A DNA stretch of 64,000 nt from Rikenella microfusus (GTDB lineage: Bacteria > Bacteroidota > Bacteroidia > Bacteroidales > Tenuifilaceae): positions 62,001 to 126,000 of the forward strand of contig DYKO01000001.1 of the NCBI GenBank assembly GCA_020722565.1, read 5' to 3'. Below are positions 18,001 through 20,816 of the stretch, piece after piece. The position numbers and the translations under genes are program-made. The notes under the pieces were generated by a model that saw nothing but the letters and a program-made list of their open reading frames with translations, searched no databases and was not told where the DNA came from. The first letter of the stretch is position 1, and each line of letters starts with the position of its first letter.

Positions 18001-18062
18001 ATCGACACAAAAAAAATCGATGTATTATTTTTCTTTAAAGATGTTGTTTCAAAGAAAAATCA

Positions 18063-18070
18063 TATATTTG
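18063..18070 (+). promoter_or_regulatory. Putative -7 box of lysC leader transcript
   Basis: TATATTTG (TAnnTTTG) with TTG at 18044-18046. Confidence 0.4.
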
Positions 18071-18091
18071 AAGCGTATAAATTTACACCAG

Positions 18092-18288
18092 ATGATTTTT
18101 TCGGCTTGTAATAGCACCTTTAGAAAACACCATCTCATGCTTACCATGGGCATGAAACAGATGTCGATTTGCATAAAGAAACAGGGCAATAAGCAAGCCG
18201 TACGCACCATACTCAAAAATATCACCACGTAAAAACTGAAATAATTTATAAGTGTGAAGGCCTGCAAACAAAGATGCAGGCCTTTTTT
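18092..18288 (+). ncRNA. Candidate structured leader/attenuator RNA or small RNA upstream of lysC
   Basis: CGGCTTG (18102-18108) pairs with CAAGCCG (18194-18200), enclosing hairpin CATCTCATGC...GCATG-AAAC-AGATG (18131-18163), then terminator 18257-18288. Contains sORF 18092-18232 (46 aa). Confidence 0.35.
18257..18288 (+). terminator. Strong intrinsic terminator 30 nt upstream of lysC start
   Basis: Perfect 10-bp stem aaggcctgca/aacaaaga/tgcaggcctt plus T-run. Confidence 0.85.
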
Positions 18289-18318
18289 ATGTTTAACCCC
18301 TAAAAAGTACCTGTAAAA

Positions 18319-19668
18319 ATGAAAGTTTTAAAATTTGGCGGAACATCGGTTGGAAACGCCGAACGCCTAAAAAGGGTAAGTACCCTTTTACCCAAAAACG
18401 AACCCTGCATCCTGGTGCTCTCGGCCATGTCGGGAGCTACCGATTGGTTAATTGAAATTACCGAACTTGCCCAAAACAAAAAAATGGTTGATGCCATTGA
18501 GAAGGGCAAGCAGTTGAAAGACAAACACATTAAAACCGCCAATGAACTATTTGAAACCAAGATGTATCGAAAAAGGGGTGAAGAATTTGTAGCCAACATT
18601 TTTCATCGAATTATTTCTAAGTTAGTCGATAGCTTCGATAGCGACGATTCCAAAGGGATTGTGGCCATGGGTGAACAACTTTCAGTGGGTCTCTTCCACA
18701 TGCTACTCACCGAGCAGGGGAAGCGTGCCACATATTTGCCCGCACTTGAATATATGAGAATCGACAGGGAATCAGAGCCCGATCTGTTCTACATTGAGCA
18801 AAACATCAATCGTTTGCTGCACAGCAATCCATTTTCAACTATTTATGTTACAGAGGGTTTTATCTGCCGAAACGCACAGGGTAAAATAGATAATCTGGGA
18901 CGCGGTGGAAGCGACTATAGCGCTGCTATTATAGGTAACGTTGTTAATGCCACCGAAGTTCAGATTTGGACCGATATCGACGGTGTTCACAATAACGACC
19001 CCCGCTACGTTGATAATACAACCCCACTACGTTCACTCTCCTACGATGAGGCGGCAGAACTGGCATACTTTGGCGCAAAAATATTACATCCCCAAACCAT
19101 TCACCCCTGTCGTATGAAGGGAATACCCGTTTTACTGAAAAATACTCTTAACCCACAGGATGAGGGAACCTTATTAACCGAAAAGGTTAGGGCTAAGGGT
19201 ATCAAGGCGGTGGCTGCCAAGGATGGAATTACCGCTATCAACATCCGCTCATCGCGTATGCTTTTGGCCTACGGATTCCTTAAAAGGGTATTTGAGGTGT
19301 TTGATACCTACAAAACCCCCGTTGATATGATTACAACCTCCGAGGTATCAGTATCCCTAACCATCGATAATAACACACACCTGAACGAAATTATTCAGTC
19401 AATAAGTTGGTTTGCTCAGGTTGAAGTGGAGCGTAACCAAACCATTATTTGTGTTGTGGGCGACTTTTTGGCCACGCACAAGGGCTACGCCGCCAGAGTT
19501 CTGGACTGTCTTCGCGAGGTGCCTATCCGCATGATCTCCTACGGCGGAAGCCACAACAACATTACCCTGCTGGTCGATAGCCACTATAAGGTTCAGGCTT
19601 TAAGTATGCTTCAGCACCTCTTTATATCAAATCCAATTCGACCTATAGCAAATAGTATCGAGGTTTAA
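18319..19668 (+). CDS. lysC: Aspartate kinase
   Basis: MKVLKFGGTSVGNAERLKRV; GRGGSDYSAAIIG; C-terminal ACT region. Confidence 0.96.
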   Translation: MKVLKFGGTSVGNAERLKRVSTLLPKNEPCILVLSAMSGATDWLIEITELAQNKKMVDAIEKGKQLKDKHIKTANELFETKMYRKRGEEFVANIFHRIISKLVDSFDSDDSKGIVAMGEQLSVGLFHMLLTEQGKRATYLPALEYMRIDRESEPDLFYIEQNINRLLHSNPFSTIYVTEGFICRNAQGKIDNLGRGGSDYSAAIIGNVVNATEVQIWTDIDGVHNNDPRYVDNTTPLRSLSYDEAAELAYFGAKILHPQTIHPCRMKGIPVLLKNTLNPQDEGTLLTEKVRAKGIKAVAAKDGITAINIRSSRMLLAYGFLKRVFEVFDTYKTPVDMITTSEVSVSLTIDNNTHLNEIIQSISWFAQVEVERNQTIICVVGDFLATHKGYAARVLDCLREVPIRMISYGGSHNNITLLVDSHYKVQALSMLQHLFISNPIRPIANSIEV

Positions 19669-19679
19669 AAACAATAGCC

Positions 19680-20816
19680 ATGGAAACTCCATACTACCAA
19701 TACGATATCGACCTACTGCAAAATACTTTAAGTATTGCTCAGCAAAAGGCAAACCGATTTGGGTACACAATACATTACGCCATGAAAGCTAATGCCAACC
19801 CGAAGCTGCTGCGTATTATATCGGAAACCGGTTTTGGTGCCGATTGCGTTAGCGGTAACGAGGTGCGAGTGGCACTTGAGCATGGGTTTAAACCATCCGG
19901 TATAGTATTTGCCGGGGTTGGTAAAACCGATAGTGAAATTGCATATGCAATCTCGCAAAAAATTTCATGTCTGCACTGCGAATCGGTTCAGGAACTGGAG
20001 GTGATAAACAGCATATCAGGAACATTGAATAGGGTAACGGATGTTGCCATCCGCATAAACCCCAATATCGATGCACATACTCACAAAAACATTACAACAG
20101 GTTTAAGTTACAATAAATTTGGCATTAGCCTCGACGATGCCAGATATATCCTAACGAATTTAAGCCGATACCCCAATACCAACCTTATAGGGCTTCACTT
20201 TCACATTGGCTCACAAATACTTAATACTGATGTTTTTAAACGGTTTGCAGAAAGGGTTAACGCCATCCAAAACGAATTGGGAACTCTATCGCTACCCTAC
20301 CTCAACCTTGGAGGCGGACTGGGAATTAATTACAGCAACCCCGAGAATCACTCCATCCCCGATTTTTCATCATATTTCGAATCCATTCATCAGGTATTAA
20401 AACCGGGTAGTGGACAATCCACACACTTTGAATTGGGGCGCTCACTGGTAGGACAATGCGGCAAGCTTATATCCCAGGTGCTTTTCACAAAAAAATCCGG
20501 TCCCAAAAGATTTGCTGTAGTAGATGCAGGAATGAATGCCCTTATACGCCCAGCGCTGTATGGCGCCCGGCACAAAATTGTTAACCTTAGCAAGCGAAAT
20601 CAACCGATCGTGGAAAGCTATAATATTGTTGGTCCAATTTGTGAAACCACCGATTTTTTAGGCGAGGAGATTAGGCTCCCTTTAACCGAACGGGGCGATA
20701 TCTTAGCCATTTTATCGTGCGGCGCTTACGCTGAATCAATGGCCTCGGATTACAACCTTAGGGGCAAACCTGAATCCCTATTTATTCATCCGAACGCTGT
20801 TGCATTTAAAACTTAA
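19680..20816 (+). CDS. lysA: Diaminopimelate decarboxylase
   Basis: YAMKANANPKLL, GLHFHIGSQI, LNLGGGLGI, GPICETTDFLG, CGAYAESMASDYN. Confidence 0.95.
   Translation: METPYYQYDIDLLQNTLSIAQQKANRFGYTIHYAMKANANPKLLRIISETGFGADCVSGNEVRVALEHGFKPSGIVFAGVGKTDSEIAYAISQKISCLHCESVQELEVINSISGTLNRVTDVAIRINPNIDAHTHKNITTGLSYNKFGISLDDARYILTNLSRYPNTNLIGLHFHIGSQILNTDVFKRFAERVNAIQNELGTLSLPYLNLGGGLGINYSNPENHSIPDFSSYFESIHQVLKPGSGQSTHFELGRSLVGQCGKLISQVLFTKKSGPKRFAVVDAGMNALIRPALYGARHKIVNLSKRNQPIVESYNIVGPICETTDFLGEEIRLPLTERGDILAILSCGAYAESMASDYNLRGKPESLFIHPNAVAFKT

Follow-up and report, generated by a model that had tools for sequence, protein, structure and literature searches.

The 64,000-nucleotide stretch of Rikenella microfusus DNA analysed here (the window) carries, between the divergent pheT and lysC-lysA, a leader region with a promoter-like box, a 46-codon ORF and a strong terminator, which very probably acts as a trp-type, ribosome-mediated leader-peptide transcription attenuator. 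In the full model, which we consider likely, a ribosome slowed at Met codons 16–24 of the leader would allow readthrough into lysC-lysA. Judged by its sequence-level features the element is of a known kind, and all of those expected of an attenuator appear to be present save a clear match between control codon and operon product; the surprise lies in the codon choice. The features referred to throughout are the following.

18063–18070, plus strand: Bacteroidetes-type −7 promoter box TATATTTG, identified by sequence.
18092–18232, plus strand: leader-peptide ORF of 46 codons, MIFSACNSTFRKHHLMLTMGMKQMSICIKKQGNKQAVRTILKNITT; the frame is open in 17 of 17 leaders and shows in-frame ATG bias.
18102–18109, plus strand: segment 1 (CGGCTTGT, codons 4–6), which pairs with segment 2 and covaries with it across clades.
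18131–18163, plus strand: central hairpin over the Met codons, in both the MFE and the centroid fold of the window leader.
18137–18163, plus strand: putative control codons Met16, Met19, Met21 and Met24 (plus Lys22); a ribosome stalled at any of the four Met codons would leave segment 2 uncovered.
18193–18200, plus strand: segment 2 (GCAAGCCG, codons 34–37; GCAGGCCG in relatives), complementary to segments 1 and 3.
18256–18266, plus strand: segment 3, the terminator 5′ arm GAAGGCCTGCA and also the antiterminator partner, from sequence and pairing.
18275–18288, plus strand: segment 4, the terminator 3′ arm (TGCAGGCCTTT, 18275–18285) with its T run, from sequence; the 3:4 fold is worth −18.3 kcal/mol.
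18319–19668, plus strand: lysC, monofunctional aspartokinase with ACT domains (TIGR00657, 310 bits above cut-off).
19680–20816, plus strand: lysA, diaminopimelate decarboxylase (TIGR01048, 376 bits above cut-off).

A preliminary description of this region had proposed conditional termination of lysC-lysA by a structured, riboswitch-like leader, or alternatively an independent small RNA, and its individual elements are found where it placed them. The −7-like box begins at 18063, and comparable TA-N2/3-TTG boxes lie ~20–45 nt upstream of the leader ATG in other leaders; transcription would start at ~18077. CGGCTTG (18102–18108) and CAAGCCG (18194–18200) form a perfect 7-bp helix, the central hairpin is present, and the terminator (10 Watson-Crick pairs and one G-U, with T's after it) ends 30 nt before the lysC ATG at 18319. 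GCAAGCC (18193–18199) matches GGCCTGC (18259–18265) at 6 of 7 positions, as suggested for an antiterminator. The helix partners and the terminator recur in 17 distinct leaders, and this comparison, with the pairing evidence given below, supports both the antiterminator and conditional termination. The part that does not stand is the class: what was overlooked is the conserved 46-codon ORF, which spans both arms of the 7-bp helix, and the position of the arms within an ORF that looks translated and has a strong codon bias, together with the lack of any Rfam family match, points to ribosome-mediated attenuation and away from a riboswitch or small RNA. The central hairpin sits exactly over the Met codons and is possibly an RNA polymerase pause hairpin; it could also account for part of the local ATG/CAT content. 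A related inverted repeat is visible in same-genus leaders. Of 200 dinucleotide shuffles, only 1 folds at least as well as leader and terminator together (z = −3.0). The leader alone shows only a weak excess of stability (z = −1.5), and the reality of the leader structure thus rests on conservation.

That conservation was evaluated in 17 distinct leaders, comprising the window, 15 further genomes of its family and one genome (G102) of another family in the same order; since these leaders are related, counts over them are not 17 independent trials, and they span seven clades. The lysC of the window (lysC1) is found in 16 of the 27 genomes of the family, and all 16 have the leader; a profile search finds one copy per lysC1 genome and none in family genomes without lysC1. 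In every one of the 17 leaders an ORF of 37–46 codons precedes the terminator, a TA..TTG promoter-like box lies upstream, and the terminator, with GGCCTGC-like arms, follows 21–34 nt past the stop codon. Wherever a leader-bearing locus is long enough to show it, lysC is followed by lysA; lysC identity across these loci is 55–77%, and searching the lysC protein against a named genome collection matched two Bacteroidales MAGs only. In the family-wide profile search for copies before other genes, only the lysC copies were significant and the weak extras inspected look like chance. Neither the Met operon nor any other part of the retrieved stretches yielded a Met-rich leader with a terminator; lysC loci class-wide showed no comparable leader with a terminator, and plasmid records gave no match.

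Mutually exclusive 1:2, 2:3 and 3:4 pairings are present across the leaders, with 2:3 weak in the window copy. The window 1:2 helix is worth −13.8 kcal/mol, and none of 300 shuffles is equally good. Segment 1 varies by clade (CGGCTTGC, GACCCGCAA, TTTGGC..TGCAC, CACC..CTACAG, TTTCACC..), with complementarity to the matching flank of segment 2 retained. When segment 1 was swapped among seven clade representatives (5040 permutations for each of 48 choices of representatives), the native partners outperformed the exchanged ones with every choice, only 1–17 of the 5040 permutations being as good or better (p ≤ 0.0034); the weakest single cases are G171, G007, G021 and G023. In 16 of 17 leaders hardly any shuffle pairs 2:3 as strongly as the native sequence (−12.6 to −17.4 kcal/mol), the window's own helix being the weakest, with one A.C mismatch and −9.8 kcal/mol, no better than shuffles. 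G102 shows a joint change of segments 2, 3 and 4 (CTGTAGGC / GCCTACAG / CTGTAGGC). The variant GCAAGCC, in place of GCAGGCC, occurs in segment 2 of the window (18193–18199) and of the G021 leader (L068), which belong to separate genera; it leaves 2:3 one mismatch weaker and keeps 1:2.

Over the 17 ORFs there are 87 internal ATGs in frame versus 3 and 2 in the two remaining frames (12.5 ± 3.4 in frame are expected from shuffling), and Met makes up 12.6% of leader-peptide residues versus 2.4% in the proteins of the window. Lys codons are enriched as well (14.9% versus 6.2%), with 103 AAR triplets in frame versus 39 and 47 in the other two; codons for Thr favor no frame. Purifying selection on the leader peptide, looked for as proof of coding, was not found: changes between species fall at all three codon positions, and the majority of changed codons are nonsynonymous. 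One Met column is invariant. Since little of the peptide beyond Met and segment 2 is conserved, the ORF is read as a leader and not as a working protein, and it matches no Pfam or NCBIfam family. What appears to be conserved is the Met codons and the open frame, not the peptide itself, a pattern that fits a leader peptide.

The same data bear on explanations that do without codon-dependent stalling. In one of these the nascent peptide would itself sense a small molecule, as an arrest peptide like TnaC or SpeFL, through a recurrent M-x-M-S-I/M-x-x-K-K pattern. This loose pattern is indeed common to distant clades, as is the invariant Met column, but the number and spacing of Met residues vary widely and the remaining peptide, with its mostly nonsynonymous changes, is hardly conserved, so that we regard peptide sensing as improbable. 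Still less probable is a separate transcript, either a small RNA or the message of a functional Met-rich small protein, that ends at the terminator, with lysC served by its own promoter. A promoter-terminator unit of ~210 nt would suit such a product, and a peptide containing Met, Cys and His could bind metal; against this, the 30 nt between terminator and lysC are few, the ORF is complementary to a terminator arm, and the element always lies directly 5′ of lysC-lysA, once per genome, and is absent where lysC1 is absent. A metabolite-binding riboswitch controlling the terminator would be in keeping with a structured leader before a biosynthetic operon, in a genome that has a SAM riboswitch at its Met operon, but we consider it extremely improbable: Rfam covariance models, at gathering and at permissive thresholds, return nothing above chance in the leader, and the helix sequences change freely among clades while the coding bias is kept.

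Within attenuation, which amino acid is sensed was approached through codon placement. The control region was defined as the codons upstream of about codon 29, where a stalled ribosome (A site) leaves segment 2 free, with an assumed footprint of 13 nt ahead of the A-site codon. It holds 68% of the codons and 78 of the 87 Met codons (90%; p = 2e-6), or 33 of 36 when one leader per clade is taken (p = 6e-4), whereas 73 of 103 Lys codons lie in it (p = 0.3), that is, no placement bias. The Met codons are thus positionally biased and the Lys codons enriched without placement, in front of an operon that makes lysine and not methionine. Given attenuation, we favor charged tRNA-Met as the main signal, with modest confidence, from this placement. 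In the competing version lysine is the signal of the same attenuator, stalling occurs at Lys22 and Lys29–30, as is presumably the case for Lys-rich leaders elsewhere in the Bacteroidales, and the Met codons are secondary or support the peptide or hairpin. The operon's product, the in-frame enrichment of Lys codons and the composition of those separate leaders (see below) speak for lysine, but Lys density falls only slightly past the control region (13.5 versus 15.6% inside) while Met is concentrated within that region (16.6 versus 4.1%), and several leaders have only 3–4 usable Lys codons; a lysine signal therefore appears rather unlikely. The Met codon is a rare one, and theory predicts that attenuation is sensitive when its regulatory codons are rare (PMC1183508).

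The Lys-rich leaders precede lysC-lysA in two other groups, f19 (L207, L208, L210, L219, L221, L057) and f99 (L075, L226, L230, L231), and differ in sequence from the window leader. They have 16–28 codons and, over 11 leaders counted, 28.6% Lys and only 4% Met; most of the 11 have their own antiterminator pairing, with segment 2 placed on or close to the stop codon. They share with the window leader the operon and the plan of promoter, leader ORF, antiterminator and terminator, and both families belong to the same order. The simplest history suggested by these sequences would be Lys-codon control in several families, with the window's clade using Met codons, perhaps together with Lys. In one f19 genus (L211–L218 and L222) a different conserved leader, AAAATCCGCC..., lies ~30–190 nt upstream of lysC with the terminator GAAAGTTGGGG/GCCCGGCTTTT and no obvious Lys-rich ATG-started ORF.

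The proposed Met-codon attenuator would operate as follows. RNA polymerase would start near 18077 and a ribosome would translate the 46-codon leader. If charged elongator tRNA-Met were short, the ribosome would slow at Met codons 16–24 (Lys codons may contribute), leaving segment 2 uncovered to pair with segment 3, so that no terminator would form and lysC-lysA would be transcribed; segment 1 would likewise be kept away from segment 2 if a following ribosome occupied the start region behind a stalled lead ribosome. A ribosome that reached the stop codon would leave segment 3 free for segment 4, and transcription would stop. In untranslated RNA, 1:2 would form, segment 3 would pair with segment 4, and termination would again result. 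The sequence comparison lends good support to conditional termination governed by ribosome position; the ORF, the bias and placement of its Met codons and the conserved competing pairings are seen directly in the sequences, and from them we infer translation, stalling, readthrough and the signal.

The transcript was folded with a partition-function model as far as the terminator loop, before segment 4, a calculation that describes equilibrium without kinetics and from a guessed transcription start. In this model most leaders have 2:3 available with a ribosome at the Met codons, and in six of them (G003, G010, G021, G023, G016 and G102) a ribosome at the stop codon almost abolishes 2:3. In other same-genus leaders the stop codon is further from segment 2 and modeled masking is partial or absent; where 26–32 nt separate segment 2 from the stop codon, segment 2 is left exposed by a terminating ribosome. 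Most relatives favor 2:3 with no ribosome on the RNA at all and, masking being incomplete as well, kinetic timing must account for part of the control. In the window copy the model favors 1:2, and 2:3 takes over only when a second ribosome sits on the start as well. The folding numbers thus support a ribosome-dependent switch without settling its details.

The arrangement resembles the enterobacterial trp, his and thr leaders (thr is RF00506) in its short ORF with regulatory codons, its segments 1:2, 2:3 and 3:4 and its terminator just before the operon. It differs in that segment 2 lies inside the ORF, 14–32 nt before the stop codon, and not after the stop as in the enterobacterial leaders, and in that the main regulatory codon here would be Met; the sequences are unrelated, the RF00506 match being at chance level only. 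In other bacteria lysC is under the lysine riboswitch (L box, RF00168); the covariance model of that family finds no match and no aptamer here. Nor is there a covariance-model match in the window to a T-box leader or SAM riboswitch, or one to the Bacteroid-trp RNA (RF01692). Leader-peptide attenuation, with leaders before amino-acid biosynthesis operons, has been reported in Flavobacterium psychrophilum of the same phylum (PMC9723704), where the accessible part of the report names no lysC or Met leader, and B. thetaiotaomicron has sORFs reminiscent of leader peptides (PMC7366714). The Sinorhizobium sORF SEP5, with a cluster of Thr and Lys codons, has been proposed as the leader of an aspartate-pathway gene (PMC10117765); like the lysC leader it carries codons of several aspartate-family amino acids, but it is alphaproteobacterial and uses Thr/Lys, not Met. 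A literature search, with subscription papers and supplements outside its reach, found no description of a Met-codon or lysC leader. To our knowledge, no Met-codon leader-peptide attenuator has been known before.

The best equivalog for lysC is lysine-sensitive aspartokinase 3, with a score below that model's cut-off. All 27 family genomes have at least one further aspartokinase-like gene (partial in less complete genomes); that of the window's genome is located elsewhere and has no clear ACT match. One family member (L129, G023:C101:5137–7560) has an extra bifunctional aspartokinase-homoserine dehydrogenase in an 850-codon frame. The Met operon of the window's genome, metY-metX-hom-metH-metF, is preceded by a SAM-I riboswitch (RF00162), so that Met synthesis there is under separate control; SAM-I riboswitches also occur at the hom/metH cluster in L203 (5384–5487), L204 (14548–14650), L205 (12624–12730) and L206 (1567–1664). 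We give an even chance to the idea that a Met-codon attenuator, evolved from or beside Lys-codon leaders, raises the lysine operon when methionyl-tRNA is short, a cross-branch control within the aspartate family. The leader would represent an amino-acid attenuator in an order, the Bacteroidales, where regulation of this type has received little attention, and sister families would differ in the control codons that the leaders of one operon carry. Should Met be what is sensed, the lysine operon would be tied to methionine supply through translation, with S-adenosylmethionine watched by the riboswitch at the Met operon.
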